Positions 11,728-31,570 of a stretch of DNA of 64,000 nt are shown here, piece by piece (the first letter of the stretch is position 1; every line of letters begins with the position of its first letter). The position numbers and the translations under genes were made by a program. The notes under the pieces were generated by a model, which worked only from the letters and a program-made list of their open reading frames with translations, was not told the DNA's origin and did no database searches. This DNA is from Ancylobacter sp. Lp-2 (GTDB taxonomy: Bacteria; Pseudomonadota; Alphaproteobacteria; Rhizobiales; Xanthobacteraceae): the NCBI RefSeq assembly GCF_020523795.1, contig NZ_JAJALI010000002.1:431690-495689 (forward strand). The letters run 5' to 3'.

Positions 11728-13065
11728 ATGACCACGCCCACTTTTGCCGAGCTCGACACGCTGTTTCGCACGCGCCGGGCGAAGATCGGCATCATCGGCC
11801 TCGGCTATGTCGGCCTGCCGCTGGCGCTGGTGGCGACAGAGGCGGGCTTTCCGGTGATCGGCTTCGACATCAATCCGCGCCGCGTGGAAGCGATCAACGC
11901 CGGCGAGCAGGTGATCCGCTATATCCCCGCCGCCCGCATGGAGGCGGCACTGACCGGCGGCCGCTTCCGGGCCACGGTTGATTTCTCCGGCCTCGGCTCG
12001 TGCGACGCCATCGTCATCTGCGTGCCCACGCCGCTGACGCGCCAGCGCGAGCCGGACCTCTCCTTCGTCGCCGACACGACGAGGACTATCGCCGGAACGC
12101 TGCGGCCGGGACAGCTCATCGTGCTGGAATCGACCACCTGGCCCGGCACCACCGTCGAGCTGGTGAGGCCGATCCTGGAGGCCACCGGCCTCGCCTCCGG
12201 CCGGGACTTCTTCCTCGCCTTCTCGCCGGAGCGCGAAGATCCGGGCAACGCCCACTACTCCACCGCCACCATTCCCAAGGTGGTCGGCGGCGACGGGCCG
12301 GAGGCGGGTGCGCTGGCGCAACTGCTGTACGGACAGTTGATCAGTTCCGTGGTGCCGGTCTCGTCCACCCAGGCGGCCGAGGCGGTGAAGCTCACGGAGA
12401 ACATCTTCCGCTCGGTCAATATCGCCCTGGTGAACGAGCTGAAGACCGTCTACGCCGCCATGGGCGTCGACATCTGGGAGGTGATCGAGGCGGCCAGCAG
12501 CAAGCCTTTCGGCTTCATGCCCTTCTATCCCGGCCCCGGCCTCGGCGGGCACTGCATTCCGATCGATCCGTTCTACCTGACGTGGAAGGCGCGGGAATTC
12601 GACATCGAGACGCGGTTCATCGAGCTCGCCGGCCAGATCAACACCCGCATGCCCTATCTGGTGGTCGACCAGCTGGCAGAGGCGCTGGACCGGCATTTCG
12701 GTCGCGGCCTTGCCGGCGCGCGCGTGCTGGTGCTCGGCGCCGCCTACAAGAAGAACGTCGACGACGTGCGCGAGAGTCCGGCGCTGAAGCTGATGGAACT
12801 GATCGACGAGCGCGGCGGGCTCTGCGAATTCCACGACCCGCAGGTCACAGCGCTGCCGCCGACCCGGCGTCATCCACGCCTCAGCGGCAAGCCGTCGATC
12901 CCGCTGGATGCGGCGACGCTCGCCGGCTTCGACGCCGTACTGGTCGCTACCGACCATGACGATGTCGACTATGCCCTGGTGGCCGAGGAGGCCCGCCTCG
13001 TGGTCGACACGCGCAACGTCTTCGCCCGGCTCGGCCTGACGCCGGCGCGGCTGGTCAAGGCCTGA
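11728..13065 (+). CDS. Nucleotide-sugar dehydrogenase (WbpA/TviB type)
   Basis: NAD-dependent oxidation of a UDP-hexose or UDP-N-acetylhexosamine C6 to the uronic acid, for surface polysaccharide, 445 aa. It has the N-terminal Rossmann motif [13 protein letters not shown], the middle-domain SPEREDPGN and the catalytic cysteine near residue 276 in [16 protein letters not shown]. The C-terminal UDP-binding domain has [13 protein letters not shown]. These fit UDP-N-acetylglucosamine/mannosamine 6-dehydrogenases better than UDP-glucose dehydrogenase (Ugd). It stands alone here, without adjacent sugar-modifying genes. The nearest glycosyltransferases begin about 12.6 kb away. Confidence 0.88.
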
Positions 13066-13076
13066 GGCTCCCCGGT

Positions 13077-14048
13077 TCAGTCGGCGATTTTCGCGCAGAT
13101 GGCGGCGTCGGCGACATCGGTGCAGGCCGGTCCACGCCGAAAATCGTCGTAGTAGATGCGCCAGACATTGCCATCGCCGCCGCGATACGGACCGAACTTA
13201 AAATACATGTGCTCGCCGAGCTGTGGCCCCTCATGGCCGATCTTGCCTTCGACGGTGACGATCCACTTGCCATTGGCGACGACGTCGATTCGCCCATCGC
13301 CAGTGGGGCCCGGCTTCACGCTGAAGACATAGTCGACCCAGCCTGATCCGGCAGCTGGCAGCGCTCCGCGCGGCGTCACCCGGATATCCGGGGTGCAGCC
13401 GGTGAATCCGGCCTCCTCCGGCCCCATGACGCCCGGCTCGATGGCCACCAGCGTGCGGAACTGGTTGTATTCGTCCGGGGGGCTCGCCATGGCCTCGCCC
13501 GGCTTGCAGCCAGTAGGGCGCTCCGACGTGCCGATGGGAGCGAAGGTGCCGGTGTCGGTATCCACGGTAACGGCGATGCGCCCCTCCATCAGGCGCAACG
13601 CGAGCAGGGGACTGTAGTCGCCCATCGCACCGGGATCGATCTCGCGCTTCCACTGCATCATCACATAGCGATGACGCTCGGTGGAAACCGGCTGTGCCAG
13701 CTGCATCGAAAGCGCATACCAGGTCTGCCGCCCGTACGGCACCAGCACGTCGGGCTTCTCCCAGATCTCCGCCCGCTCACTGCACAGCTCACTCTCCGGC
13801 GGACACAGCGGCCGGACCGACAGATCGAGCGACTGTCGACCGCTGCGGACCACCTGGGACTGAAACACAACGGTTCCAGCGCTCTGCTCGTGATTATGCT
13901 TGTAGAAAAGCCCCCCTCCGGGAGCGAAGTCGTCCCCCTCGAACCCGTCGGCCAGCGGAGTAGCGGACGTGTCCGCCCGCCCCGGAGAGGGCAGCATCGC
14001 GGCGGTCAGGAAGGCGACGAGCAGGGCAGCGGTCGGGGCAGCGCGCAT
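13077..14048 (-). CDS. Secreted polysaccharide lyase-like protein (heparin lyase I fold)
   Basis: 323 aa with a classical signal peptide (about 1-25, ending PGRADTS). The body looks like the beta-jelly-roll family named after heparin lyase I: GFEGDDF near the N-terminus, RAEIWEK mid-protein, and the C-terminal YFKFGPYRG...[10 protein letters not shown] that ends the domain. It probably acts in the periplasm or outside the cell on an acidic polysaccharide. Substrate and activity cannot be read from sequence. It is convergent with the sugar dehydrogenase (11-nt gap) and divergent from the ABC-like gene at 14170 (121-nt gap). Confidence 0.65.
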
Positions 14049-14169: not shown

Positions 14170-16887
14170 TTGTCGGTCAATTTTTTTCGTTACGTCTGGA
14201 TGTACAGCCGGCGTGAGCAGCTCATCGTGCTGTTCTACGTGGTGGCCTCGTTGCCCTTCTATTGGTGGTCGCTCGACGTTCCCAAGCGGATCGTCAACGA
14301 GGGCATCCAGGGCAGCGTCTTCGAACATGGCGTCACCCAGGCTCGCCTGTTCGCCTTCACGGTGTCACTGCCCGACTTCCTCGGCGGAGGCAGCTATGTG
14401 ATCTCCGATGGGCTGCTGCTGGCGCAGCTGCCCTACCTGTTCGCGCTCAGCCTGGTCTTTCTCGCCCTCACGCTGGTCAACGGCTGGTTCAAGTACGTCA
14501 TCAATATCCGCAAGGGTGTGCTCGGCGAGCGCATGCTGCGGCGCCTCCGCTTCGACCTATTCGGTCTGGTCATGCGCTTCCGGCCGGAAGACATGCGCAC
14601 GACCAAGTCGGCGGAAGTGACCAGCATGATCAAGGACGAAGTCGAACCGATCGGCGGTTTCTTCGGCGAGGCGTTCATCACCCCGGCCTTTCTCGGCACC
14701 CAGGCGCTCACCGCTATGGCGTTCATCCTGGCCCAGAACATGTGGCTCGGCACGCTCGCCATCGGCCTGATCCTGGTGCAGGGCGTGGTCATTCCGCATC
14801 TGCGCCGCGAGCAGATCCGCCTCGGACGGGAACGGCAGATCGAATCGCGCATTCTCGCCGGTCGCATCGGCGAGATGATCGAAGCGGCACCGGCGCTGCA
14901 CAATTACGGCGTCACCGGCCATTCCTCGTCCGAGATCGGTCATCGTCTCGGGACGTTGTTCGACATCCGGCTGCGGCTCTATCGCCGCAAATTCGCGGTC
15001 AAGTATCTCAACAACCTGTTGGCCCAGCTCACGCCGTTCGTCTTCTACACGGTGGGCGGCTATCTCGCTCTCAAGGGCCAGCTCGACATAGGCCAGTTGG
15101 TCGCCGTCATCGCCGCCTATCGCGATCTGCCGACGCCGATCAAGGAGCTGATCGACTGGGACCAGCAGCGGGCCGACGTGACGGTCAAGTACGAGCAGGT
15201 CGTCAGCCAGTTCTCCAAGGACACGCTACTGCCCAAGGAAACCAACGAGCCGCCGCCGGCGTTCGCCGCCGACGCGCCGATCACGGTGGTGGGCCTGCGC
15301 GTGATCAATGGGCGCGGCCTCGTCCAGCTCGATCGCATGTCGGTCGCCATCGATCGGCCCGCACGCATTGCTTTTGCCGGCCCCACCGGGGGCGGACGCG
15401 ACATTCTAGCGAAGGTAATCGGCCGCCAGATCACCGATTATCAGGGCAGCGTGACGATCGGCGGTCACGAGATCGCCACCATGTCCGACCGCGAGGCGAG
15501 CAGCATCATGCTCTACGCCTCGAGCGAGCCCTACATCATGTCGGGTTCGATCCGCGAAAACCTGACCCTCGCGCTGCGCCGGGCGACGCCGCGCCTCGAC
15601 GAGCGGGCGCCCCTCACGCCCCAGCAGCGCTACTGGCTCGATGAAGCGCGCATGACCGACAATCCGCTGGTGTCGCCCGATGCCGACTGGATCGACTACG
15701 ACGCCATCGGAGCTTCGAGCCCCGCCGAAGTCGACGTAGCCATCAGCAACGCGCTGCGCATCGTGCGCGGCTATGACGAGATCTTTCGCGTCGGCATGTC
15801 GAGCCGCCTCGGCGACAATCTTCCTCCCGACACCGCCGAGCGGCTACTCGCTGCGCGGCCGGCGATGATCGAGCGTTTCAGGGACCGGGGGCTCGAGCAA
15901 TATGTCGAGGCATTCCAGCCCGACACCTTCAATACCAGCGCAAGCATCGGCGAAAACCTGCTCTACGGCGTCGCCGTCGGCGAGCGCTTCGCTGCGGAAC
16001 ACATGGCGGCGGACCCGTTCATGCGTTCGATCATCGCCGCCGAAGCTCTCACCGCTCCGCTTACCGCGATTGGTATCAAGATGGTGGAGACGGTGGCCGA
16101 CGTCTTCCAGGATCTCGCTCCCGACAACCCATTGCGGGAACGCTATTCCTTCATCGACAATGCCGAAATCGAGGCGGTATGGCCCGAGGTCCGCTCGGCC
16201 TGGAACCGCGGCCAACGCCGGCACCTCAGCGCCCAGGTACGCGACAAGCTGATCGGCTACGCGCTGATGTATGTCGAGCCGCGCCACCGCCTGAACCTGA
16301 TCGACGATCGCCTGGTGGCCCGCATCCTGCGGGCCCGGGTCAGCTTCCGGCAATTTCTTCCGGCGTCGGAAGCCAAGGACGTGGAGTTCTATGACGAAGG
16401 CCGGCTGATGCCGGCGGCGTCGATCCGCGACAATCTGATCTTCGGCCGCATCCGCTACGGCAAGACGCATATGCGCGACAAGCTGCTCGCCGTGGTCGGC
16501 GAGGTGCTGAACGAGCATGGGCTGGAGAGCTTCGTGGTTTCCAAGGGGCTCGACCAGGAGGTGGGTCCGGGCGGGCGGCTGATCTCGATCCAGCAGCGCG
16601 TGACGGTGCAGCTGGCGCGCGCGATGCTGCGGCGGCCGGATATTCTCGTGCTAGACGATGCGCTATCTAGCTTCGCACCGTCGGAAGGCCATATGATCCT
16701 TCAGGATATAATGGAAGCCATGCAGGGGCGTACCGTCATCGTCACCCAGGCGGGAGACGATGACTTCTCGCCCTTCGACATGGTGCTGAAATTCGAGGGT
16801 GGTAAGTTCACTGGCTTGGAGCGCAAAGACAGTGCAAAGCCCCCCTCCGAAGCGCCGGCGTCGGTGCCCGCAGCGGCGTCTGCATAA
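14170..16887 (+). CDS. Aberrant ABC-exporter-like membrane protein with degenerate ATPase and internal repeats
   Basis: 905 aa. An ABC-exporter-like membrane domain (about 1-330, six hydrophobic stretches) is followed by an ABC nucleotide-binding domain split by an insertion of about 270 residues. Catalytic motifs are abnormal. Walker A (about 403) reads GPTGGGRD, with Arg for the invariant Lys. The signature (about 800-810) reads GPGGRLISIQQ instead of LSGGQ. Walker B (about 825) ends LDD instead of LDE, and the H-loop (about 858) reads VTQAG instead of AHR. A Q-loop-distal motif occurs three times: SGSIRENL (~458), SASIGENLLYG (~590) and AASIRDNLIFG (~750). The start is TTG 14170, 11 bases after AGAAAAGG; no ATG is in frame nearby. 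It is first gene of a run extending to 25673. Function unknown; ATP hydrolysis is doubtful. Confidence 0.75.
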   Translation: MSVNFFRYVWMYSRREQLIVLFYVVASLPFYWWSLDVPKRIVNEGIQGSVFEHGVTQARLFAFTVSLPDFLGGGSYVISDGLLLAQLPYLFALSLVFLALTLVNGWFKYVINIRKGVLGERMLRRLRFDLFGLVMRFRPEDMRTTKSAEVTSMIKDEVEPIGGFFGEAFITPAFLGTQALTAMAFILAQNMWLGTLAIGLILVQGVVIPHLRREQIRLGRERQIESRILAGRIGEMIEAAPALHNYGVTGHSSSEIGHRLGTLFDIRLRLYRRKFAVKYLNNLLAQLTPFVFYTVGGYLALKGQLDIGQLVAVIAAYRDLPTPIKELIDWDQQRADVTVKYEQVVSQFSKDTLLPKETNEPPPAFAADAPITVVGLRVINGRGLVQLDRMSVAIDRPARIAFAGPTGGGRDILAKVIGRQITDYQGSVTIGGHEIATMSDREASSIMLYASSEPYIMSGSIRENLTLALRRATPRLDERAPLTPQQRYWLDEARMTDNPLVSPDADWIDYDAIGASSPAEVDVAISNALRIVRGYDEIFRVGMSSRLGDNLPPDTAERLLAARPAMIERFRDRGLEQYVEAFQPDTFNTSASIGENLLYGVAVGERFAAEHMAADPFMRSIIAAEALTAPLTAIGIKMVETVADVFQDLAPDNPLRERYSFIDNAEIEAVWPEVRSAWNRGQRRHLSAQVRDKLIGYALMYVEPRHRLNLIDDRLVARILRARVSFRQFLPASEAKDVEFYDEGRLMPAASIRDNLIFGRIRYGKTHMRDKLLAVVGEVLNEHGLESFVVSKGLDQEVGPGGRLISIQQRVTVQLARAMLRRPDILVLDDALSSFAPSEGHMILQDIMEAMQGRTVIVTQAGDDDFSPFDMVLKFEGGKFTGLERKDSAKPPSEAPASVPAAASA

Positions 16888-16917
16888 AGGGGATCGTGCT
16901 CCTCAGGAGGGTGGCAA

Positions 16918-17427
16918 ATGACCATCGAGGACGAAGTCAGGTCGATGCAGAAATTCCGCATGTTCCATCATGTGGAAGTGTCCAAGCTGAAACTGCTTGC
17001 CATGGTCAGCGACCGGATCACCTTCCAGCCGGGCGAGGTGATCTACGAGCAGGGCGCTGCATCGGATGCGGTATATATCGTGCTGGAAGGCGAGTTTACC
17101 GTGTCGCTGCGCACGCCTGCGGGGGTGATCAACTTCGCCGAACATGTGCGTGGCGCCATTCTTGGCGAGGCGGGGGTCTTGTGCGATCAGGTCCGCATGG
17201 TAACGATCACCGCCGAAAGCCCGGTGGTGGCGCTGCGCATCGACCGTGACGTCTTCCTGCAGTTGCTGAAAGAATCGCCGCCGTTCAATTTTGCCGTCAT
17301 GCGTGAGCTGGGACGACAGATCATGGATCTCAACAACATCTGCGCCCAACTTGTACAGCAGCTGCCGAAGGGGGCGCCGGCGGTGGATGCCGGCCACCGT
17401 CTCGGCGAGCCGCAGCACACGCACTGA
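16918..17427 (+). CDS. Stand-alone cyclic-nucleotide-binding domain protein
   Basis: 169 aa, essentially one Crp-type cNMP-binding domain (about 15-135) plus a short helix and a loose tail. There is no helix-turn-helix, so it is not a DNA-binding CRP/FNR regulator. The phosphate-binding cassette keeps Glu84 and Arg93 (LGEAGVLCDQVRMVTI), so it may still bind a cyclic nucleotide. The ribosome site AGGAGG (16905-16910) is strong, with ATG at 16918. It lies 30 nt after the ABC-like gene and 9 nt before the cyclase gene, which suggests it reads the cyclase product or couples cyclase and ABC protein by contact. Confidence 0.85.
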   Translation: MTIEDEVRSMQKFRMFHHVEVSKLKLLAMVSDRITFQPGEVIYEQGAASDAVYIVLEGEFTVSLRTPAGVINFAEHVRGAILGEAGVLCDQVRMVTITAESPVVALRIDRDVFLQLLKESPPFNFAVMRELGRQIMDLNNICAQLVQQLPKGAPAVDAGHRLGEPQHTH

Positions 17428-17436
17428 TCCACTCCG

Positions 17437-19179
17437 ATGTCCTCCGTCGGCACGACGACTGGATCGCCGGCTTCGGGGAAGCTCCAGCAGGATTTTCGCG
17501 ACCATCCCTGGTCGTGCCACGCGCGGCTATGGTCGGGCGTCGTCCTGTTCACTTTCGTGCTGACGCATCTGATCAACCACGCGCTCGGCATTTTCGGAAT
17601 CGAGGCGATGGAGGTGGCGCAGCAATGGCGCTGGCTGCTGTGGAAATCCCTTCCCGGCAGCGTGTTGCTCTATGGCTGCTTCCTGACCCATATGATCCTC
17701 GCCAGCCTGCGCATCCTGCGCCGCCATACCTGGCGGATGCCGCGGGACGAAGCCTGGCAGATCGTCTCGGGGCTCGCGATTCCGTTGCTCGCGGCCGGCC
17801 ATGTGCTGGAAACGCGGGTAGGTGGCACCTGGTTCGGCGCCGACGAGAGCTATCACGCGGTGCTCGCGAGGATGTGGCCGGCGGTGGCCACCTGGCAGAC
17901 GGTGCTGCTTCTCGTGGCGTGGACGCATGGCGTGGTCGGCATCCACCATTCGTTGCGCTACCAGAACTGGTACCCTCACTGGCGCACCACATTGCGGATG
18001 GTGGCGATCATCGTGCCGCTATTGGCGCTGGCCGGCTTCGTCGCCTCGGGGCGGGAGGCGGGGACCAGATTTGCCAATCCCAAGCCGATGACCGAGGAGC
18101 AGCGTGCCGGTCTCGACAAGGCACGAATGATGCTCGACAGCGGGCTCGGCGCCTTCGGGATCGGACTCGCCGGCCTGATCGGCTTCGCCTATGTGCGACG
18201 GCGTTCGCGCGCCACGGTGACCATCACCTATCGCGGCTACGGCCCGGTGCAGGTGCCGCGGGGCATCTCGGTGCTGGAAGCCAGCCGCATGCACGGCATT
18301 CCGCATCCCTCCACCTGTCGGGGGCGAGGGCGCTGCTCGACGTGCCGCGTGCACATCCTCTCCGGCGCGAAGGGCCTGCCCGACGCATCGGGTCCGGAGC
18401 GTATGCTGCTGTCCCATATCGGCGCGCCGGAAAACGTACGGCTCGGCTGCCAGCTGCGCCCCACTCACGATATCGGCGTGCGGGTGCTGATGCCGGTGCT
18501 CGGTCGCCCCACGGCCGATGCCGACAGCGAGGCGAATGAATGGGCGCTGGAGCGGAACGCCACCGTGCTGTGCCTCGACCTCCGGGCATTCAGCACCCTG
18601 ACCCAGAACCGGCTGCCTTATGAAATCGCGGTTCTGATCAATCGCTTCGCCGCCGAGATGACGCAGGCGGTGGAAAGTCATGGCGGGCATATCGACCTGA
18701 TGTACGGGGACGGCCTGCTGGCGGTCTTCGATGCCGACGAACACCATGTCGGTGCCGGCGCACGAGCCGCACTGAGTGCGGCGCGGGACATGAGCCGGGT
18801 GCTCGACCTGCTCAACTCAGAAATGCGTGGAGCTCTTCCGATTCCGATCCGCGCCGGTATCGGCATCCACACCGGGCCAGTGGTGCTCGCCCGCATCGGC
18901 GACGGATTGCAGAACTCGGTCATGCGCGCCATCGGCACCACCGTGGCGTTCTCGGTCGGCCTTGAGGCCGCCTCCAAGGAATTCCTCGCGGACTACGTGG
19001 TCGCCGTTTCGACCGCCGAAGCTTCAGGGTATGACTTTACCGATCACAGCGTCCGTGACGTCGTGGTCGATGCTCACAACACGACGGTGCCGGCCTTCGC
19101 CATTTCCGATCGTGCAGCGCTGGACAAGATCATGGCGCGCCCTGCTATGCTGAGAGTATTGAACAAGGCCGGAGTATAG
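17437..19179 (+). CDS. Membrane haem anchor / [2Fe-2S] ferredoxin / class III nucleotide cyclase fusion
   Basis: 580 aa in three parts. Residues about 25-210 form a six-helix membrane domain like the SdhC/D cytochrome b anchor, with His in each expected helix (THLINH, LTHMI, AGHVL, WTHGVVGIHHS). Residues about 260-350 form an adrenodoxin-like [2Fe-2S] domain with Cys294, Cys300, Cys303 and Cys338 (C-x5-C-x2-C...C). Residues about 375-560 form a class III cyclase domain with metal ligands Asp381 and Asp425. The substrate Lys position is Leu421. The D/T-x2-N-x3-R segment reads Thr501, Ala504, Gly508, so the transition-state Asn and Arg are absent. The architecture recalls the quinone-responsive cyclase CyaC of Sinorhizobium. 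Whether this copy makes cAMP is uncertain. Confidence 0.85.
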   Translation: MSSVGTTTGSPASGKLQQDFRDHPWSCHARLWSGVVLFTFVLTHLINHALGIFGIEAMEVAQQWRWLLWKSLPGSVLLYGCFLTHMILASLRILRRHTWRMPRDEAWQIVSGLAIPLLAAGHVLETRVGGTWFGADESYHAVLARMWPAVATWQTVLLLVAWTHGVVGIHHSLRYQNWYPHWRTTLRMVAIIVPLLALAGFVASGREAGTRFANPKPMTEEQRAGLDKARMMLDSGLGAFGIGLAGLIGFAYVRRRSRATVTITYRGYGPVQVPRGISVLEASRMHGIPHPSTCRGRGRCSTCRVHILSGAKGLPDASGPERMLLSHIGAPENVRLGCQLRPTHDIGVRVLMPVLGRPTADADSEANEWALERNATVLCLDLRAFSTLTQNRLPYEIAVLINRFAAEMTQAVESHGGHIDLMYGDGLLAVFDADEHHVGAGARAALSAARDMSRVLDLLNSEMRGALPIPIRAGIGIHTGPVVLARIGDGLQNSVMRAIGTTVAFSVGLEAASKEFLADYVVAVSTAEASGYDFTDHSVRDVVVDAHNTTVPAFAISDRAALDKIMARPAMLRVLNKAGV

Positions 19180-19183
19180 ACGC

Positions 19184-21055
<1,872 letters not shown>

Positions 21056-21064
21056 AGGGACATC

Positions 21065-22978
21065 ATGCGGCGAAGGACATTCCTGGCTCTGATGATGGCG
21101 CTGGCAGGGGAGCGGGTCGCAAGCGCGGCGCCGGGACGCTACCCACCCGAGCCGCCACTGCTGCGCACCGAGGTCGATATCAATCAGATGCCGGCTTTGC
21201 CGGATCGTCTGCCGGATCATCCGCGCGTGATCGACGTCGCCGGTATGGGCCGGGAGCCCGGCCGCTATGGCGGCACCATGCGCATGCTCATGGGCGACCA
21301 GCGCGATATCCGGTCCATCAGCATTTATGGCTACACACGGCTGGTGGTGTTCGACACCTCCGGCAGGATCGTGCCCGACATCCTGGAGAGCGTCGACGTC
21401 GAAGGCGGCCGCATCTTCACCCTGCACCTGCGCAAGGGGCATAAATGGTCGGATGGCTGGCCCTTCACCAGCGAGGACTTCCGCTACTGGTGGGAGGACA
21501 TGGCCAATAATGACCGGCTGAGTCCGGGAGGACCGCCGTTCCAGCTGTTCGTCGACGGCGAGGTCGCCAAATTCGAGATGATCGACGAGACGACCGTACG
21601 CTTCAGCTGGAGCAAGCCCAATCCTGCCTTCCTGCCGGCGCTGGCCGGTGCGCAGCCGCTGGAGATCTTCGTACCCGCGCATTATCTGCGGCAGTTTCAC
21701 CAGCGCTACGCCGATCCGATCCGGCTGGGTGCGCGGATCCGGCAGGAACGCGTGAAGGACTGGGGCGCGTTGCACGACCGGATGGCCCGCTCCTACCGGC
21801 CGGAAAACCCCGAACTGCCGATGCTCGGCCCGTGGATCCCGCGCACCAAGCCGCCGGCCGAATTCTTCGTGTTCGACCGCAATCCCTATTTCCACCGCGT
21901 CGACGAGCGCGGCTGGCAGTTGCCCTATGTCGATCGCATCACCATCGCCATCGGCACCGCCTCGCTCATTCCGGCCAAGGTGGGTGCCGGAGGCGCCGAT
22001 CTGCAGGCGCGTTATCTGCGCTTCGACAACTACACCTTCCTGAAAGAGGGCGAACAGCGCGGCAACTACACGGTACGTCTGTGGGAGCGGGGGGAGGGCG
22101 CCTATGTCGCCATTTTCCCCAATCTCAATGTGAAGGATCCTGTCTGGCGCACCGTGCTGCGCGACGCGAATGTCCGGCGCGCCCTGTCGGTCGGCATCAA
22201 CCGGCGCGACATCAACCAGGTCATCTTCTTCGGGCTTGCCCATGAGGGCGCAAACACCATCCTCCCCGGCAGCGCGCTCTACGATTCCAAATATGACAAC
22301 GCCTGGTCCCAGTACGATCCGGCGCTGGCGAACAAATTGCTGGATGCCGCAGGCCTGTCGAAGCGCGACGACGATGGCATCCGCCTGCTGCCCGACGGAC
22401 GGCGCGCCGAGATCACCATCGAGACAGCGGGCAACAGCACCGAGGAAACCGACGTCCTCGAACTCGTGGCCTATGACTGGGAAAAGATCGGCATCAAGCT
22501 GTACGTACGGGCGACGCAGACAGACCTGCTCCGGCGCAGCGTCAGCTCCGGCAATGCGATGATGTCGGTGTGGCCGGGCTTGGACAATGCCATCCCGAGC
22601 CCCGACATGGCCCCGGACGGCCTCGCCCCGACCAACTCCATGCAGTTCCAATGGCCGCAATGGGGGCAGTTCGTCGAGACCGGCGGCATGGCCGGAGAAA
22701 AACCCGACATGCCCGCGGCGCAGGAACTCATCGACCTGCAGAACCGGTGGCGCCAGTCGGTGACCACCGAGGAACGGCAGGAAATCTGGCGACGCATATT
22801 GCAGATCAACGCCGACGAGGTCTTCACCATCGGCATCGTCAACCGGGCCTCGCAGCCGGTCGTGGTCTCGAACCACCTGAAGAATGTGCCGGAGACCGGC
22901 ATCTTCAGCTTTGAACCCGGCGCCTATTTCGGCGTCTACATGCCCGACACATTCTGGTTCGACGACGGGAAGGAATAA
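21065..22978 (+). CDS. ABC importer periplasmic substrate-binding protein (peptide/oligosaccharide family 5)
   Basis: 637 aa, extracytoplasmic solute-binding protein of the peptide/nickel (SBP_bac_5) family. A signal peptide with twin Arg (MRRRTFLALMM...ASA) covers about residues 1-22. Family landmarks are ILESVDVEGG, FTLHLRKGHKWSDGWPFTSEDF and DANVRRALSVGINRRDINQ. Family members carry di/oligopeptides but also plant- or cell-wall-derived oligosaccharides, so the ligand cannot be assigned. Spacing of 9 nt from the ATPase gene and 3 nt to the first permease indicates one transcript. Confidence 0.88.
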   Translation: MRRRTFLALMMALAGERVASAAPGRYPPEPPLLRTEVDINQMPALPDRLPDHPRVIDVAGMGREPGRYGGTMRMLMGDQRDIRSISIYGYTRLVVFDTSGRIVPDILESVDVEGGRIFTLHLRKGHKWSDGWPFTSEDFRYWWEDMANNDRLSPGGPPFQLFVDGEVAKFEMIDETTVRFSWSKPNPAFLPALAGAQPLEIFVPAHYLRQFHQRYADPIRLGARIRQERVKDWGALHDRMARSYRPENPELPMLGPWIPRTKPPAEFFVFDRNPYFHRVDERGWQLPYVDRITIAIGTASLIPAKVGAGGADLQARYLRFDNYTFLKEGEQRGNYTVRLWERGEGAYVAIFPNLNVKDPVWRTVLRDANVRRALSVGINRRDINQVIFFGLAHEGANTILPGSALYDSKYDNAWSQYDPALANKLLDAAGLSKRDDDGIRLLPDGRRAEITIETAGNSTEETDVLELVAYDWEKIGIKLYVRATQTDLLRRSVSSGNAMMSVWPGLDNAIPSPDMAPDGLAPTNSMQFQWPQWGQFVETGGMAGEKPDMPAAQELIDLQNRWRQSVTTEERQEIWRRILQINADEVFTIGIVNRASQPVVVSNHLKNVPETGIFSFEPGAYFGVYMPDTFWFDDGKE

Positions 22979-22981
22979 GCG

Positions 22982-23980
22982 ATGCTTCGCTATATCGCCC
23001 GCCGCATCCTCATCATGATCCCGACGCTGCTGATCACCAGCGCGCTGATCTTCACGGTGATGCAGCTGCCGCCAAGCGACTATTTCGAAACCTATGTCGC
23101 GGAGATGGCGGCGCAGGGCGAAAAGGCGGATATGAGCCGCGTCGAATTCCTCAAGAAGGAATACGGCTTCGACAAACCGCTGATCGAACGCTACTTCCTG
23201 TGGGTTACCGGCTTCGTCCGCGGCGATTTCGGCTATTCGTTCGAGTACGAGATGCCGGTGAGCGACGTGGTGGGCGAGCGCCTTGCGCTCACCGTGCTGG
23301 TATCGTTCTGTACGATCCTGATGACCTGGATCGTCGCTTTCCCGATCGGCATCTATTCCGCGACCCACCAGTATAGCTGGGCGGATTACGGCCTGACCTT
23401 CATCGGCCTGCTCGGCATCGCCGTGCCGCACTTCCTGCTGGCGCTGATCTTCATGTATTTCGCCAATGTGTGGTTCGGCCTGTCCATCGGCGGCTTGATG
23501 GATCCGATCTATTTCAACCAGCCGTGGAACTGGGCCAAGGTACAGTCGGTGCTCGCCCATCTGTGGATCCCGGTGCTGATCATCGGTGCCGGCGGCACCG
23601 GCAGCATGGTGCGCGCCATTCGCGCCAACCTGCTGGACGAGCTGCAAAAGCAGTACTACGTCACCGCCAAGGCCAAGGGCCTGCCGCCGGGCAAGGCGCT
23701 GGTGAAATATCCGCTGCGCATGTCGCTGAACTTCTTCGTGTCGCATATCGGCGACGTGCTGCCCTCCATCGTATCGGGTTCGGAACTCACCGCCGTCGTA
23801 CTGTCGCTGCAGACCACCGGCCCGCTGCTTTTGCGGGCCCTGCAAAGCCAGGACATGTATCTCGCCGGCTCCTTCCTGTTGTTCCTTTCCTGCCTCACCG
23901 TGGTCGGCGTGCTGATCTCCGACATCCTGCTCGGCTTCCTCGATCCGCGCATCCGCCTGCAAGGGGGACGCACGAAGTGA
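22982..23980 (+). CDS. ABC importer permease (DppB/YejB family)
   Basis: 332-aa inner-membrane subunit. An N-terminal anchor helix (RRILIMIPTLLITSALIF) is followed by the Dpp-type periplasmic loop with EYGFDKPLIERYFLWV, then five further hydrophobic segments. The EAA loop is near residue 230 (YYVTAKAKGLPPGKALVKY), which couples to the ATPase. It overlaps the next permease gene by 4 nt (GTGA), so the two are translationally coupled. Confidence 0.92.
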   Translation: MLRYIARRILIMIPTLLITSALIFTVMQLPPSDYFETYVAEMAAQGEKADMSRVEFLKKEYGFDKPLIERYFLWVTGFVRGDFGYSFEYEMPVSDVVGERLALTVLVSFCTILMTWIVAFPIGIYSATHQYSWADYGLTFIGLLGIAVPHFLLALIFMYFANVWFGLSIGGLMDPIYFNQPWNWAKVQSVLAHLWIPVLIIGAGGTGSMVRAIRANLLDELQKQYYVTAKAKGLPPGKALVKYPLRMSLNFFVSHIGDVLPSIVSGSELTAVVLSLQTTGPLLLRALQSQDMYLAGSFLLFLSCLTVVGVLISDILLGFLDPRIRLQGGRTK

Positions 23981-25158
23981 ACCAGCCGGTCTCCCTGCCG
24001 CCGTCCGGCGCGCCGCTGTCGCATTTCATCGCCGAAGGCGTGTTCGACCCCCACCAGGCCGACAAGCTGACCAAGGCGCAGGAACGGGTCTATCTCGCCT
24101 CGCAGCTGACACTGATGTGGTGGAAGTTCCGCAAGCACCGGCTGGCGGTCATTTCCGGCGTCTTCCTGATGGTGCTCTACGCCTCCATCCTGATCAGCGA
24201 ATTCCTCGCGCCTTACAATTACCAGTCGCGGCACACTGACTTCATCCGCACCCCGCCACAGAGCGTCCACCTGTTCCACGACGGGCGGTTCGTCGGCCCC
24301 TTCACCTATGGGCTGACCTCCACGCTCGACATGAACAATTTGAAGCGGAACTACAGCGAGAACACGCAACAGATTTTTCCGATACGGTTTTTCTGCCGCG
24401 GTGACGGCTACCGCTTCTGGGGAATGTTCGAGGGCGACCTCCATCTCGTCTGCCCGGGCGAGGGAGGCACGATGTTCCTGCTCGGCACCGACCGGCTGGG
24501 CCGCGACATGCTCTCGCGCATCATCTACGGCGCCCGCATCTCGCTCACCATCGGCCTGATCGGCATCTCCGTCAGCTTCGCGCTCGGCATCGTGATCGGC
24601 GGCCTCGCCGGCTATTATGGCGGCCTGTTCGACCTTCTCGTGCAGCGCACCATCGAGGTGGTCCAATCGCTGCCGACCATCCCGCTCTGGCTGGCGCTGT
24701 CAGCGATCATGCCGCCGAGCTGGAGCCCGATTCTGGTCTATTTCGGCATCACCGTGATTCTCGGGCTGATGGACTGGACCGGGCTCGCCCGCGCCGTGCG
24801 CTCCAAGCTGCTGTCGCTGCGCGAGGACGACTACGTCGTTGCGGCACAGCTGATGGGGGCGGGCACGCCGCGCGTGGTGTTCCGCCATCTTGTGCCGGGC
24901 TTCATGAGCCATCTGATCGCCTCGGCGACCATCGCCATCCCCAGCATGATCCTCGGCGAGACGGCGCTGAGCTTTCTCGGCCTCGGCTTGCGCCCGCCGA
25001 TCACCAGCTGGGGCGTCATGCTCAACGAGGCGCAGAACATCAACATCGTTGTGCTCTATCCCTGGCTCATCCTGCCGGTGGTACCGGTGATCGCGGTGAT
25101 CCTCGCCTTCAACTTCCTTGGCGATGGGCTGCGCGACGCCGCCGATCCCTATCGATGA
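23977..25158 (+). CDS. ABC importer permease (DppC/YejE family)
   Basis: 393-aa second permease. An N-terminal cytoplasmic stretch of about 55 residues precedes the first membrane helix (LAVISGVFLMVLYASILISEF). A periplasmic insertion of about 110 residues precedes the core (LGTDRLGRDMLSRIIYGARISL). The EAA loop is DDYVVAAQLMGAGTPRVVFRH, and ETALSFLGLGLRPP near the end is typical. I chose GTG 23977, overlapping the previous stop, because the family N-terminus begins there. Pairs with the permease at 22982. Confidence 0.91.
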   Translation: MNQPVSLPPSGAPLSHFIAEGVFDPHQADKLTKAQERVYLASQLTLMWWKFRKHRLAVISGVFLMVLYASILISEFLAPYNYQSRHTDFIRTPPQSVHLFHDGRFVGPFTYGLTSTLDMNNLKRNYSENTQQIFPIRFFCRGDGYRFWGMFEGDLHLVCPGEGGTMFLLGTDRLGRDMLSRIIYGARISLTIGLIGISVSFALGIVIGGLAGYYGGLFDLLVQRTIEVVQSLPTIPLWLALSAIMPPSWSPILVYFGITVILGLMDWTGLARAVRSKLLSLREDDYVVAAQLMGAGTPRVVFRHLVPGFMSHLIASATIAIPSMILGETALSFLGLGLRPPITSWGVMLNEAQNINIVVLYPWLILPVVPVIAVILAFNFLGDGLRDAADPYR

Positions 25159-25673
25159 GCCCTGCCACGCCCATGACCAGCCCGTCCCGCCTGGAAAAGA
25201 CGCTGTTCCGACTGCAATCGCAGCAGGCCTGCCTTGCCTGGGCCTTCAGGGAAATCGTCGATCGTCCCGGCCCGGTGATCGAGCTCGGCCTCGGTCTCGG
25301 CCGGACCTTCGATCACCTGCACCGGCATCTGCCCGATCGCGAGATATATGTGTTCGACCGGGTGAACGGCGCCTATGCCGATTGCCAGCCCGATCCCGCT
25401 TTCCTGTTTCTGGGAGAGATCGAGCAGACGCTACCGGCCTTGCATGATCGGCTCGAGGGACGGGTCGTACTTGCCAATTCCGACCTCGGCTCCTTCGATC
25501 GCGATTCCAACCGTCGCGTCGCGGAAATGTCGAGCCGCCTGCTGCCGCCGATCATGGCGCCGGGCGGGATCGTCATGTCAGACCTGCCGCTGAGCCTCGC
25601 CGGCTTCGACGAGGTGCCGCTGCCGCCCGGCGCCCTGGAAGGCCGCTACTATCTCTATCGCCGCGCGGGCTGA
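25155..25673 (+). CDS. Small class I SAM-dependent methyltransferase
   Basis: 172 aa. The SAM-binding motif I is VIELGLGLGRTFDHL (about 37-51), with motif II EIYVFDR and a motif IV-like VLANSDLGS. It lacks an extra substrate domain, so the acceptor is unknown. The ATG overlaps the stop of the permease gene (ATGA), making this the last gene of the + strand run. Its 3' end overlaps the convergent glycosyltransferase/deacetylase gene by 19 nt. Its operon position suggests modification of the transported compound or of a surface glycan. Confidence 0.75.
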   Translation: MSPATPMTSPSRLEKTLFRLQSQQACLAWAFREIVDRPGPVIELGLGLGRTFDHLHRHLPDREIYVFDRVNGAYADCQPDPAFLFLGEIEQTLPALHDRLEGRVVLANSDLGSFDRDSNRRVAEMSSRLLPPIMAPGGIVMSDLPLSLAGFDEVPLPPGALEGRYYLYRRAG

Positions 25674-27604
25674 AGGTCGGCCACATCACCGGCGCCGAGA
25701 ACTTCCCGCACCCCGACGAAGTTGGCCACGCCGGAATCGAGCAGACGGTCGACCAGTTCATCGAGGAAACGGTCGATCCAGCCGTCATGCACCAGATGAT
25801 GGGTGAGCAGGCCGATCGGCTCCAATACGCCGGGCGCGGCCGCCAGCTCCTCCTCGATGAGCCTTGCGAGATTGTCCAGCAGCTCGCCCTCGTCAGCGAG
25901 GCCACCGCCTTGACGCCAGGCGATCGGATCGAGATGGGTGTTCAACTGCAGCAGACCGGGGGCGGCGTAGCGCGCCTTGCGCCGCTGGAAGGTCGACACC
26001 GCCCGGAAGCCACAGCCGGGCAGGGCGGCCAGGAGAGCCGGGTCCACCCGGTTCCACGGCGGCACGAAGACCGGCACCGCCTGGCCGCCGAACAGCGATG
26101 TCACCCGCTCCAGTCCCTCCACCGCCTCCGCCGTCATGGTGGAAAGCGGACGATGCGCCCCGAACTCCGCCTTCTTCGCATCGGCCGGGGCGTGGTTCGC
26201 GTGCCCCCAGCCATGCACCAGCATATCGACGCCGCCGAGGGTTGAGAGACGGCGGGCCAGTTCCGGCGTCGCGCGCGCGGGTATCGTCGCCAGCGCGAGA
26301 GGAATGCCGCGGCCGACGGTGCGGTCGAGCAGGCGGTCCAGCGCCGCGCTCGGCATCACGGCGTCGTCGTCGCGCCACCAGAAGTGCAGCTGCCGCTGCA
26401 TCGCCCGCGCGCGGGCCAGCGCGGCGTCGAGCCGGTCGCGTCCTTCGGCGCGGCCGGCGGCGCGCCCGGCGAACTCGCCGACCAGCCGTGCCGCACGGAC
26501 GGCGCCGTCACGGGTAATGCCGGACCAGTCCGGACGCGGCCGCTCCAGCAGGGCGGTCGCAGCCGTCGCCAACCGATCGCCGTCGATCTCCACGGTGGGG
26601 ATGACACGCGCCAGCCCCCGACGCTCCAGCTCGGCCGCGCGCAGCGTCTGCTCGCGCTCGCCGCCCTCGGCGAAGGGCACCAGCAACGCCCTCGCCCCCG
26701 CCGCGGCAAGGTCCATGACGGTATTATAGCCGGCCTGGCTGATGGACAGCGCCGCTCGCCGCAGCAGCAGCGGAAAGTCCGGCCGCGCCCGCTCGACGAT
26801 CAGGTTCGACGGTGCTGCCGTTACGAGAGCCGCGAAATCAGCTTCCGGAACCCCCTGGCCGACCAGCAGGCGCCAACGATGTGCTGGCAGCTTCGCGGCG
26901 GCGGCGAGGGTGGCGCGCGCTAGTGGCAGGCTAGCGGTCGAACCACCGCCCGATACCACGATCTCATCCCGGCCATCGATTCTTCCATCGTCTGAAACTC
27001 GATTTCCATCATGGAGATAGCCGGTATCTTTTACACGGCGAATCAGCGCTGGCGTCGTCGGCCAGGACGCCGACAGCGGCACGATGTCGGCATCGCCATG
27101 AAACAGCACGCCATCGTAATAGGCCGCCAGCCGCGCCAGCGCGCTTTCCGCCTTTTCCGGCCGCGACGGCGGGTTGAGCACGTCGCGGATCGAGCACAGC
27201 ACCGCAGGTCGCGGATGCCGGATATGTGCGCGTTGCAGCAACGCCTCGAATTCGCCCGCCAGGCTGCGGCGGCCGAAGGGGAAGAGCTCCGTGATCAGCA
27301 CATCCGGTCGCGCATGATCGAAGGCATCGACGAGTTCCTGCGTCCGGCGGGCAAGGTAGGCATCGTCGACCGGTTGTCCATTCGGCATCAGCAGGGTAGC
27401 GAAATCCGCTCCGACGCAATGAAGCGGCGGCAACTGCACGAGCTCGCAGCCGTCGAGCCGCACTGTGGGATTAGGCCGGCCACCCGACGCCAACACCACG
27501 CGCCAACCTTCGGCGGCCAGGATGCGGCCCAGCGCCGCCATGCGCGCCAGATGACCGACGCCCAGCAGATGCGTGACCGCGATGAAGACCGAGCGGTCAC
27601 TCAT
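25655..27604 (-). CDS. Fused MurG-like glycosyltransferase and NodB-type polysaccharide deacetylase
   Basis: 649 aa. Residues about 1-370 resemble GT28/MurG-like glycosyltransferases: GVGHLARM at the N-terminus, and the sugar-nucleotide segment ISQAGYNTVMDLAAAG with a downstream GEREQ...RAAEL. Residues about 405-645 form a NodB-fold deacetylase. Its metal motif 1 is WWRDDDA (~410) and motif 2 is HGWGHANH (~462), with FVPPWNR further on. A two-domain protein that adds and deacetylates a sugar is implied, but acceptor and donor are unknown. It is the last gene of a four-gene - strand cluster, overlapping the upstream gene by 4 nt. Confidence 0.82.
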   Translation of the reverse strand: MSDRSVFIAVTHLLGVGHLARMAALGRILAAEGWRVVLASGGRPNPTVRLDGCELVQLPPLHCVGADFATLLMPNGQPVDDAYLARRTQELVDAFDHARPDVLITELFPFGRRSLAGEFEALLQRAHIRHPRPAVLCSIRDVLNPPSRPEKAESALARLAAYYDGVLFHGDADIVPLSASWPTTPALIRRVKDTGYLHDGNRVSDDGRIDGRDEIVVSGGGSTASLPLARATLAAAAKLPAHRWRLLVGQGVPEADFAALVTAAPSNLIVERARPDFPLLLRRAALSISQAGYNTVMDLAAAGARALLVPFAEGGEREQTLRAAELERRGLARVIPTVEIDGDRLATAATALLERPRPDWSGITRDGAVRAARLVGEFAGRAAGRAEGRDRLDAALARARAMQRQLHFWWRDDDAVMPSAALDRLLDRTVGRGIPLALATIPARATPELARRLSTLGGVDMLVHGWGHANHAPADAKKAEFGAHRPLSTMTAEAVEGLERVTSLFGGQAVPVFVPPWNRVDPALLAALPGCGFRAVSTFQRRKARYAAPGLLQLNTHLDPIAWRQGGGLADEGELLDNLARLIEEELAAAPGVLEPIGLLTHHLVHDGWIDRFLDELVDRLLDSGVANFVGVREVLGAGDVADLQPARR

Positions 27605-28737
27605 GAAGGAACTCCAGGCGGGGGAACGGGTGCCAAGATGCCGGCTTCGGCGAAAGCCTGCCCGACAATGGCCGAGGCGGCCGCCAGATCCCGCTCCGAC
27701 GCGACGAAACGGAAGGCGGCGGCAGCCATGGCCGCACGGCCGGCGGCATCCTCGATCAGGCCGTCCAGATTGGCTGCCAACGCCGCGATATCGCCCGGCG
27801 GCGACAGTTGGCCGGTCTCGCCATCGCGGATGACATCGGGAATGCCACCATAGCCGGCCGCGACGCAGGGCAGGCCATGTGCCTGCGCCTCCAGATACAC
27901 CGCGCCAAAGGCCTCGTTCACGCCCGGCCAGACGAACAGGTCCGCATCGGCCAACAGACGACTGAGCACGGCTCGCTCAGAAACCGCACCCATGAAACGC
28001 ACGCGCTCGCCGAACCGCGAGAAAAGCGCTTCCACCTCGCCGCGCGCCGGTCCGTCGCCGATCACCGTCAGCTGCCAGAGCTGCTCCGCAAGGCAGCCGA
28101 GCGTCTCCGCCAGTTGGCGGTAGGAGGCCAGCTTGTCGCCCGCGCGCATCATCGCCACGGTGACCAGCCGAATGTCGCGCCTGGTGGAAACCGTACGCGA
28201 GGACCCGGCCGACGGCCATTCGCTGAGGTCTAGAAAGGGGCGCAGATCGACGAGACGCTGATGCGGCGGCCGCAGCGCCTCCAGCATCTCGCGGTCGTGG
28301 CGGGTCGGCGTGAGCACCAGATCGGCGCGCGCAATGGCCGCCTCGCTGAGACGGTGCCCCTCGGCATAGGGGCCGCTGGCTCGCTTGGGGGCACGTGACG
28401 CCTCGGCGATCACGTAGGGCACGCCCAGCGCCTCGGCGAGGGCAGGGCCGATCAGGTCCGGTGCCTTGTAATAGACGTGATAGGTGAAGACGCAGGCGAT
28501 CGGGCCGAGGCCGGCCTGCCGAGCCACGATGCACTCGACCTCGCCACGCGCCGCCGCGCGCAGGTCGGCCCACGCAGCTATCGATGGCGCGAGGGTCAAG
28601 CTCCGCAAACGGGACGCCAGCTCCACCTCATAGCCAAGCCGCCCGAGCAGCTTCTGAAACAGCAGCGCCATGGTCCTCTCGCCGGAAGGAACCGGATGGT
28701 CCGGCGGCTTCAGCGGCGCGAGGTACAGAACCCTCAT
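27601..28737 (-). CDS. Glycosyltransferase, GT4 family
   Basis: 378 aa, GT-B fold. The N-terminus (RVLYLAPLKPPDHPVPSGERTMA) is the donor-independent Rossmann half. The C-terminal half has VTVAMMRAGDK, the segment DLFVWPGVNEAFGAVYLEAQAHGLP with the GT4 E-x7-E motif, and GETGQLSPPGD. The start is ATG 28737, overlapping the upstream gene by 4 nt. Together with its neighbours it probably builds a surface saccharide. The linkage and sugar cannot be assigned. Confidence 0.85.
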   Translation of the reverse strand: MRVLYLAPLKPPDHPVPSGERTMALLFQKLLGRLGYEVELASRLRSLTLAPSIAAWADLRAAARGEVECIVARQAGLGPIACVFTYHVYYKAPDLIGPALAEALGVPYVIAEASRAPKRASGPYAEGHRLSEAAIARADLVLTPTRHDREMLEALRPPHQRLVDLRPFLDLSEWPSAGSSRTVSTRRDIRLVTVAMMRAGDKLASYRQLAETLGCLAEQLWQLTVIGDGPARGEVEALFSRFGERVRFMGAVSERAVLSRLLADADLFVWPGVNEAFGAVYLEAQAHGLPCVAAGYGGIPDVIRDGETGQLSPPGDIAALAANLDGLIEDAAGRAAMAAAAFRFVASERDLAAASAIVGQAFAEAGILAPVPPPGVPS

Positions 28738-30044
28738 GGGCGCGGGCGAGGGGCGGCGAGGGGGCGCATCAGCGCATCCAGCCGCGAAACGCCCGCCTCG
28801 AAGGAAAAAGCCGAGATCAATCGCCGATAAGCCGCCTCGCCTAGCCGCTGCCGCTCCGCCGGTTCGGCGATCAGCCTCCCGAGCGCCTCGGCAAGCTCCA
28901 CCGGCGCCTTTGGCGGCACCAGCAGCCCGCTGACGCCGTTCTCGATGAATTCCGGCACGCCGGCGAAATCGGTCGAGACGGCCGGTAGCGCCTGCGTCGC
29001 CGCTTCCATCAGCACATTGGGCAGGCCGTCCCGGTCTCCATCGCCGGCAGGACGACTGGGCAGCACGAACAGGTCGGCCTGTCGCATCGCCTCGACCACG
29101 GCGCCCTGCGCCTGGCTGCCGCGCCACTCGATGCGGTCGGCAAGACCGAGCGCGGCAGCCTGCGACTTCAGCGCGTCGAGCAGCTCGCCGCCGCCGATAT
29201 GGACAAGCCGCCAGTGCAGGGCAGGTGGCAGGCGCCCCAGGGCGGCGAGCAGATCGTCGAACCCCTTCTTTTCCACTGCGCGGCCAACCGCCAGCAGCCG
29301 CACCGGGCGCAAGGGGTCGCTGCCGTCCGCCGGCTCGCGCCGCTCCGGGGGCAGGGGAAAGCGGGCGAGGTCGAGCCCGTGATAGACGAGCTCCACCCGT
29401 TCGCCCTCTCCGGGCTCGGCCACCCGCCGCAGCTCCGACCAACCGTCACGCGTGCAGGTCACCCCCCACCGCGCCGCGCCGATCTTCTCGCGGCGCTCCC
29501 ATTCAGGCGTGGTCCAGATATCCTTGGCATGGGCGGAGAAGGAGAAGGAGCGGCCGGTCAGCAGCGCCGCGTAGCGGGTCACCGAGGCCGGCGTGTGCAG
29601 GAAATGCACATGCAGGTGGCGAATGGCAGGATCGACCTCGCGCGCCAGCACCAGTGCCTGGCCGAAGCGCCGCACACGGCTGGCCGAGAAGTCGCGGCGG
29701 AGGTCGCGCAGAAAAACCGACAGCGCCGCCCGCAGATTCAACCGCCGCAGCGCGTGGAATAGTCCACCCGCGACCCGGCGCGGATCGTCGTGCAGATATT
29801 CCGGCAGGTAGAACAGCCGGGCCGTGATCTGCTCATGCATCGGATGTCGGTAGCGGTCGGTCGGCCGGCGGAGCGACCAGATGTCGAAGACGTAGCCCGC
29901 CCGCTCCAGTGCCAGGATTTCCTGCGCGATGAAGGTCTCCGACAAGCGCGGATACCCCTTGAGCACGATGGCGAGGCGAGGGGAGGTACCCTCCCCGGGC
30001 TTGACCGGCGCAAAGGTGCCGCCATCGCGGAGCGGTAGCGTCAT
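28734..30044 (-). CDS. Glycosyltransferase, GT4 family (colanic-acid WcaL/exopolysaccharide type)
   Basis: 436 aa. The N-terminus LAIVLKGYPRLSETFIAQEILALERAG is typical of WcaL-like exopolysaccharide transferases. It is followed by HLHVHFLHTPASVTRYAALLTGRSFSFSAHAKDIW and a C-terminal GT4 domain (VGRAVEKKGFDDLLAALG, GDRDGLPNVLMEAATQALP, NGVSGLLVPPK). It overlaps the downstream gene by 4 nt and lies 3 nt after the gene at 30048, so all are one transcript. Confidence 0.87.
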   Translation of the reverse strand: MTLPLRDGGTFAPVKPGEGTSPRLAIVLKGYPRLSETFIAQEILALERAGYVFDIWSLRRPTDRYRHPMHEQITARLFYLPEYLHDDPRRVAGGLFHALRRLNLRAALSVFLRDLRRDFSASRVRRFGQALVLAREVDPAIRHLHVHFLHTPASVTRYAALLTGRSFSFSAHAKDIWTTPEWERREKIGAARWGVTCTRDGWSELRRVAEPGEGERVELVYHGLDLARFPLPPERREPADGSDPLRPVRLLAVGRAVEKKGFDDLLAALGRLPPALHWRLVHIGGGELLDALKSQAAALGLADRIEWRGSQAQGAVVEAMRQADLFVLPSRPAGDGDRDGLPNVLMEAATQALPAVSTDFAGVPEFIENGVSGLLVPPKAPVELAEALGRLIAEPAERQRLGEAAYRRLISAFSFEAGVSRLDALMRPLAAPRPRP

Positions 30045-31328: not shown

Positions 31329-31490
31329 CAAATCATCCACTTGCGAGCGTCCGCCAAGCCTGTGCGAGGCAAGGCTTTCGCCCTGCGCCATCCCCGGTGG
31401 CCTACCGGGGAAATCGTAGGGCTGAGATGCCCGTTCTGTCGAGCGGACTCGATTATGCCTAGCCGAGATTCGATCAAAAGTAGAGGCCCC

Positions 31491-31538
31491 AAAAACCACG
31501 CTCCCGATCTTGTTCGCCGTGCGGCGTCCGGGAGCGTG
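31491..31538 (-). terminator. Rho-independent terminator downstream of mazG
   Basis: A perfect 10-bp stem, CACGCTCCCG (31497-31506) with CGGGAGCGTG (31529-31538). Read on the - strand it is followed by TTTTT (31495-31491). The 22-base loop contains a second small stem (CGCC/GGCG). It lies 33 bases after the mazG stop and separates mazG from the glycosyltransferase cluster. Confidence 0.8.
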
Positions 31539-31570
31539 CCGATCGAAAATTTCCGTCGCCGTTGAACCAC

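Follow-up and report, generated by a model that had tools for sequence, protein, structure and literature searches.

In a 64,000-nt stretch of the genome of Ancylobacter sp. Lp-2 (Hyphomicrobiales), which is described as a soil bacterium, we analyzed three consecutive genes. They encode an ATP-binding cassette (ABC) exporter-like protein, a stand-alone protein with a cyclic nucleoside monophosphate (cNMP)-binding domain, and a fusion of a cytochrome-b-like membrane anchor, a [2Fe-2S] domain and a class III cyclase domain. The window, as we use the term here, is this whole stretch. Orthologues occur in Ancylobacter at 91-93% identity. We showed that the cyclase domain in the window lineage no longer has its catalytic residues, although the predicted fold, the metal-binding Asp residues and purifying selection have been maintained. 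Our tentative interpretation, to which we assign a probability of roughly 0.45, is that the trio is a membrane redox-sensing unit in a glycan island, in which the silenced cyclase would now work without making cyclic nucleotide. The ferredoxin-cyclase architecture has already been described (eLife 2016, PMC4821796). A literature search, which covered few subscription journals, found no description of the trio, of the pseudo-ABC family or of the silencing.

A conserved three-gene unit

All three genes lie on the forward strand (Table 1), with 30 nt between the ABC-like gene and the cNMP gene and 9 nt between the cNMP gene and the fusion. These open reading frames, their domain order and their spacing had been proposed in the initial annotation, and the reading-frame positions and Pfam matches agreed with it. 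It had also reported motif losses in the two outer genes and intact ligand residues in the middle one, and we recovered both. In the ABC-like protein, PF00664 and PF00005 both scored above cut-off, and the transmembrane (TM) domain and nucleotide-binding domain (NBD) fold are present. Its Walker A motif reads GPTGGGRD and its Walker B motif LDD, and Gln occupies the switch-His position. In the cNMP protein (169 aa), only PF00027 scored above cut-off, and a CRP/FNR-type C-terminal DNA-binding domain was not found. It keeps Glu84 and Arg93, which we take to be the phosphate-site residues, and the residue after Arg is Met. The fusion matched PF00111 above cut-off and PF00211 with 19.7 bits, just below the cut-off of 21.9 (22.5 bits in the genome search). 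Its last domain has the cyclase homology domain fold and keeps the metal-binding residues D381 and D425. At the active site, the Lys is replaced by L, the partner Lys/Thr purine position by R, the Asn by A and the Arg by G. We take the Lys/Thr positions of class III cyclases to be purine-specifying and the Asn and Arg positions to be catalytic.

All of the counts below describe sampled loci and are not natural frequencies. The named loci were the best 80 of 578 relatives; others came from 60 relatives of the window's genome and from part of the matches in 397 genomes of the order. The locus table comprised 126 rows, of which L075 (cyclase cut by a contig end) and the duplicates L148, L152, L166 and L168 were removed, leaving 121. 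Similarly, the 132 cyclase rows were reduced to 127 by removing five cut rows (L173-L176 and L182).

In 137 of 140 distinct loci, profile searches placed a cNMP gene on the same strand after the ABC gene, at a median gap of 24 nt. This conserved order rules out a chance neighbourhood. Two of the exceptions (L073 and L117) have the fusion straight after the ABC gene and no cNMP match in the locus, and the third (L191) has 1.3 kb of downstream sequence. The initial annotation had regarded rare adjacency in other genomes as evidence against a three-gene module. Adjacency was not rare: the fusion lay downstream of the ABC gene in 66 of 121 loci, 64 of them with the full trio. The three genes form a conserved unit. 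Among the 397 genomes of the order, 88 had both the fusion and the ABC gene, 23 only the fusion, 36 only the ABC gene and 250 neither (thresholds 1e-60 and 1e-80). As these genomes are mutually related, a Fisher test on the counts does not yield a true probability.

Silencing of the cyclase domain

Both Asp residues, the Asn and the Arg were intact in 59 of the 60 fusions that lie away from an ABC gene, but in 15 of the 67 ABC-linked fusions. The remaining 52 ABC-linked domains were not intact. In a tree from which the scored columns had been left out, these 52 silenced cyclases formed one clade with a Shimodaira-Hasegawa-like approximate likelihood ratio (SH-aLRT) support of 99. Its named members come from Ancylobacter, Bosea, Rhabdaerophilum and metagenome-assembled genomes labelled Methylocystis, Methylobacterium, Hyphomicrobiaceae and Asaia. 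The variety of residues had led us to suspect repeated independent silencing, which was ruled out by the single clade. The tree implies six changes in linkage to the ABC gene. Within the clade, the Lys was lost in all 52 members, the Asn in 50 and the Arg in 42, whereas the two metal Asp residues were kept in 52 and 50 and all redox ligands in 52 of 52. Most of these cyclases were counted as ABC-linked because they share a locus with the ABC gene; three have 1.6-2.1 kb between the cNMP gene and the fusion. L149-L151 were assigned from genome coordinates, an assignment that was confirmed in the locus table, and L153 by its near-identity to L262 (the contig of L153 starts 463 nt before the match).

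The ratio of nonsynonymous to synonymous substitution rates (dN/dS) of the cyclase domain was 0.024, 0.028 and 0.050 between the window and L064, L063 and L071, respectively. The corresponding values of the membrane domain were 0.059, 0.092 and 0.118. Over ten pairs within the silenced clade, the cyclase-domain values ranged from 0.024 to 0.296 and were highest in Bosea-like pairs. Away from ABC genes, one fusion (L243:3987-5720) was alone in having lost its active site, with N, K, D, R and E at the five positions.

Loss of the ligand site in the cNMP partner

Among the 121 distinct loci, the Glu/Asp and Arg of the cNMP protein were kept in all 15 with an intact cyclase downstream and in all 55 without a fusion downstream. 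Beside the 51 silenced cyclases, they were kept in 22 loci and lost in 27, and the gene was absent from 2. Loss of the site or of the gene was therefore seen only next to a silenced cyclase (29/51 loci vs 0/70). At the position after Arg, where the window has Met, the 70 loci that lack a neighbouring silenced cyclase have S or T (68 loci) or I (2 loci). On the ABC tree, the losses correspond to four changes, none of them outside the portion containing the silenced clade, which also includes one other row (L080). This portion makes up 34% of the branch length, which gives a probability of 0.34^4 = 0.014 if four losses fell at random. The tree was built with FastTree, has several long branches and includes five rows that were dropped from later counts.

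In Microvirga loci (L131:3699-4787 and others), the cNMP gene is often followed not by a cyclase gene but by a member of another family; the L131 representative of this family contains an SLT domain.

The pseudo-ABC protein

The motif losses extend over the whole family. Compared with the exporters MsbA, BmrA and PCAT1, the family lacks the Walker A Lys-Ser/Thr (GK[ST] in 0 of 133 relatives) and the switch His (0/133), and the catalytic Glu, which the window protein also lacks, is present in 3 of 133. Judged by these residues, the window protein was shown to be a member of a pseudo-ABC family that is predicted to lack ordinary ATP hydrolysis. The family also differs from these exporters in having about 340 residues from the Q-loop region to the signature (341 in the window, median 339 over the 133 relatives). 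Matches to exporters end near residue 482 and restart near residue 778. Pfam gave two stretches, as two full NBDs would, but the model and the PDB matches revealed a single NBD interrupted by an insert. With a loose pattern, additional copies of an NLLFG-like motif were found in the insert: three in 85 of 133 proteins, two in 34, one in 10 and four in 4.

SUR and similar ABC proteins use the exporter fold for tasks other than ATP-driven transport, and SUR chains were among the fold matches of the window protein. SUR retains its nucleotide-binding motifs, whereas the window family has lost them and is paired with a cNMP-fold protein. NHLP-type export loci (TIGR03896, TIGR03796) combine an ABC exporter with a cNMP-fold protein. 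The window proteins matched these two models weakly, far under the curated cut-offs (30.6 vs 161.05 bits and 82.7 vs 853.3 bits, respectively). Elsewhere in the window's genome, a paralogous ABC-cNMP pair lies beside YcaO (PF02624), TfuA (PF07812), a cyclase/AAA protein and a further cyclase protein (L031, G000:C29:352000-371000), in what looks like a peptide-modification locus.

The redox part of the fusion

The redox ligands proved to be invariant: the four Cys residues and His44, His85, His122 and His164 were present in 127 of 127 distinct fusions, the window included. In the structure model, the four His residues sit in four different predicted helices. Cluster 1 of the earlier study (eLife 2016, PMC4821796) comprises 30 class IIIb cyclases with a ferredoxin and a six-TM anchor similar to fumarate reductase/succinate dehydrogenase (FRD/SDH). 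Four intramembrane His residues were predicted there to hold two haems, as exemplified by R. palustris Q132R4. The window fusion has the same domain order, with the ferredoxin between the membrane and catalytic domains, and also four intramembrane His residues. The passages on ferredoxin in that paper treat its proteins as cyclases, whereas the window clade lacks the Lys, Asn and Arg and lies within an ABC-cNMP operon; neither point occurs in those passages.

The anchor itself gave little in similarity searches. Against PDB sequences, a 12-row profile returned one unrelated weak match. In Pfam, PF00033 was touched by 2 of 33 members (best E 0.0069). In the fold search with the fusion, all 50 rows were filled by the cyclase domain, with no ferredoxin or cytochrome chain among them. 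In genome G335, two ferredoxin-type cyclase fusions with intact residues stand in tandem (L215:3385-6906).

Other cyclases in the genomes

The silenced fusion was the sole PF00211 match in 8 of the 24 genomes with this fusion that were searched, all eight being 99-100% complete: seven of the window's genus and the Bosea-like G336. A ninth genome with no other match (G158) is 56% complete. Among the eight, none had a class I cyclase and five had no CYTH protein, in a search that did not cover classes II, V and VI. The window's own genome has three PF00211 proteins, namely the trio fusion and two that flank the paralogous ABC-cNMP pair on contig C29. The window cyclase has lost the Lys, Asn and Arg, and in eight relatives the fusion is the only class III cyclase; signalling through freshly synthesized cyclic nucleotide is therefore unlikely in the window and in those species.

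A glycan island around the trio

The trio sits in a glycan island, with a UDP-sugar dehydrogenase and a polysaccharide lyase-like gene upstream and four glycosyltransferases downstream, at 25.6-31.6 kb of the window. We compared 80 distinct ABC loci that extend 5 kb or more in both directions, and in 52 of them one of the island's glycosyltransferase families was represented less than 8.5 kb from the ABC gene. Near fusions away from the ABC gene, the same families were found in 4 of 46 loci, and three of these four were on a contig bearing an ABC gene. A dipeptide-type importer ATPase like that of the window was present in 62 of the 80 ABC loci. The four glycosyltransferases of the window lie 8.8-14.7 kb beyond the ABC gene, just outside the 8.5-kb limit.

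Proposed circuit and its alternatives

The initial annotation had proposed that redox state is sensed in the membrane, relayed to the cyclase and read by the cNMP protein. Such a redox-to-cyclic-nucleotide relay was probably ancestral, because the redox ligands are invariant, the cNMP residues are kept in 15 of 15 loci beside an intact cyclase and the genes are conserved as a unit. It describes the ancestor and relatives such as Chelatococcus well, but it is doubtful for the window, whose cyclase lacks the Lys, Asn and Arg and eight of whose relatives have the silenced fusion as their sole class III cyclase. A diheme cytochrome-b-like anchor would take up electrons from the quinone/quinol pool, which would set the [2Fe-2S] state. 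In the ancestor, this state would have gated the class III cyclase, whose product the cNMP protein would have sensed. From gene order, residues and co-occurrence, we suggest that the pseudo-ABC protein was then controlled by the cNMP protein, whose gene lies between the ABC and cyclase genes. In the window lineage, the silenced domain most likely relays redox state by direct contact with the cNMP-fold protein, the pseudo-ABC protein or both. Alternatively, it might act as a nucleotide-binding regulatory domain that makes neither cAMP nor cGMP. The pseudo-ABC protein would be the output of the circuit, most likely regulating, or serving as a gated conduit for, what the neighbouring glycosyltransferases make, and surface glycan would be the final output.

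In its most specific form, this proposal describes a circuit that has outlived its messenger. A quinone-linked diheme/[2Fe-2S] sensor would drive the pseudo-ABC protein by contact through a dead cyclase and a cNMP-fold adaptor, whose ligand residues are lost in part of the lineage. Glycan export or synthesis would then be set by respiratory state without cyclic nucleotide or ABC ATP hydrolysis. We consider this form possible, with the odds against it. The trio links a cNMP protein and a redox cyclase to an ABC exporter-like family that has no ATPase motifs. The cyclase was silenced a single time, and selection has since maintained it, even as the cNMP partner lost its ligand site or disappeared. 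The resulting natural series (both intact, enzyme silenced, both silenced, adaptor gone) can be used to ask how a relay based on a diffusible messenger may turn into one based on contact. For the ferredoxin-type cyclases, whose sequences have been known since at least 2016, the trio also provides a conserved partner in the genome and an output that can be tested, surface glycan.

Several observations weigh against a silenced unit that works without cyclic nucleotide. The loss of cyclase activity is predicted from residues, contact among the three proteins is inferred, and the anchor was not tied to FRD/SDH by the Pfam, PDB sequence or fold searches. As silencing had one origin, the evidence for co-decay of the cNMP protein consists of about four events, placed on a fast tree that has long branches. 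The window's genome contains two more class III proteins, one of them with the Asn and Arg. Three of the eight genomes have a CYTH protein (a class IV enzyme or a triphosphatase), and classes II, V and VI were not searched. The cNMP protein of Ancylobacter loci keeps its Glu and Arg, so cyclic nucleotide binding may persist. Weaker selection in the Bosea-like pairs (dN/dS up to 0.30) means that plain decay is possible there. For the link with glycans, 28 of the 80 ABC loci had no glycosyltransferase within 8.5 kb, the window and other Ancylobacter loci among them, and the control loci were shorter (about 10 kb).

Some of these points would also fit an ordinary relay, in which the fusion or a cyclase elsewhere makes cyclic nucleotide and the window cNMP protein reads the signal and controls the ABC-like protein, much as the initial annotation had envisaged. 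Intact cyclases do occupy the same operon position in 15 of the 67 ABC-linked fusions, always with ligand-competent cNMP proteins (15/15). The window cNMP protein keeps its Glu and Arg, and the class III protein with Asn and Arg lies beside the paralogous ABC-cNMP pair in the same genome. We nevertheless consider this explanation unlikely, given the missing Lys, Asn and Arg, the Met in place of S/T after the cNMP Arg, and the eight relatives with neither another class III domain nor a class I enzyme. The fusion could also be one half of a heterodimeric cyclase, giving the metal Asp residues while a second class III protein gives the Lys, Asn and Arg. The C1 half of mammalian cyclases supplies the metal Asp residues, and it is precisely these that are kept in the silenced clade (52 and 50 of 52) while the other three are lost. 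A second PF00211 protein is present in the window's own genome. In 8 of 24 genomes, at 99-100% completeness, there is none, which rules out a class III heterodimer there unless the partner is too diverged for PF00211. A heterodimer is the least probable of the explanations considered.

A rather improbable alternative is that the fusion is an electron-transfer protein. Its cytochrome b and [2Fe-2S] domains would serve a partner enzyme, with the cyclase domain as a docking or structural tail, and the ABC and cNMP genes would have a separate function. The redox ligands are invariant (127/127) while cyclase chemistry is dispensable, as this would predict. The two loci without a cNMP gene can be read both ways: the fusion stands there without the cNMP partner, but it is still paired with the ABC gene. 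The cyclase domain of the window lineage is, however, more constrained than the membrane domain, beyond what is expected of a mere tail. Stepwise loss of catalytic and ligand residues, together with the dN/dS values of up to 0.30 in some Bosea-like pairs, could instead indicate slow decay, the module being a relic heading for loss and retained by operon inertia. We regard this as very improbable, because the loci used have full-length open frames, dN/dS is 0.024-0.050 in the window lineage and the redox ligands are invariant across a clade of several genera.

Genomic surroundings

The operon continues past the fusion gene. A dipeptide-type ABC ATPase begins 4 nt later and is followed by a substrate-binding protein and permeases (Table 1), so the transcription unit is probably longer than the trio.

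Table 1. Features of the trio and of its surroundings in the window.
Feature	Position	Strand	Basis
UDP-sugar dehydrogenase	11728..13065	+	PF03721, PF00984, PF03720
Polysaccharide lyase-like protein	13077..14048	-	PF14099
Pseudo-ABC half-exporter-like protein, 905 aa, TTG start	14170..16887	+	PF00664 and PF00005; TM domain and one NBD split by a large insert
Approximate NBD insert between Q-loop region and signature region	15592..16404	+	Residue spacing, gap in exporter matches
Stand-alone cNMP-binding-domain protein, 169 aa, ATG start	16918..17427	+	PF00027; Glu84 and Arg93 present, Met after Arg
Fusion of cytochrome-b-like membrane anchor, [2Fe-2S] domain and silenced class III cyclase domain, 580 aa, ATG start	17437..19179	+	PF00111, PF00211, tree, residues
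Membrane anchor, four invariant His (44, 85, 122, 164)	17509..18201	+	Alignment, predicted helices
[2Fe-2S] ferredoxin domain, Cys 294, 300, 303, 338	18208..18492	+	PF00111, residues
Cyclase homology domain, metal Asp kept, Lys/Asn/Arg lost	18544..19164	+	Residues, fold model, tree
Dipeptide-type ABC importer ATPase, next gene of the operon	19184..21055	+	Pfam
Substrate-binding protein SBP_bac_5	21065..22978	+	Pfam
Importer permease	22982..23980	+	PF00528
Predicted second importer permease	23977..25158	+	Gene position and relative in the L043 gene list
Glycosyltransferase, family 28 C-terminal domain	25655..27604	-	PF04101
Glycosyltransferase, group 1 (start provisional)	27601..28716	-	PF00534, PF13692
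Glycosyltransferase, group 1	28734..30044	-	PF00534
Glycosyltransferase, family 28 C-terminal domain	30048..31598	-	PF04101

A polysaccharide deacetylase was suspected by eye at the C-terminus of the first glycosyltransferase (25655-27604), but Pfam gave only GT28_C. Antisense to the importer genes there is an open frame of 1404 aa (19748-23962 of the window, reverse strand), which is most likely a by-product of high G+C content and not a gene. In 8 of the 80 ABC loci, a family of MBL-fold hydrolases lies within 8.5 kb of the ABC gene (L078:8428-9339, L102:4499-5413 and others), in some cases with a CHASE2 cyclase; these proteins are possibly phosphodiesterases.

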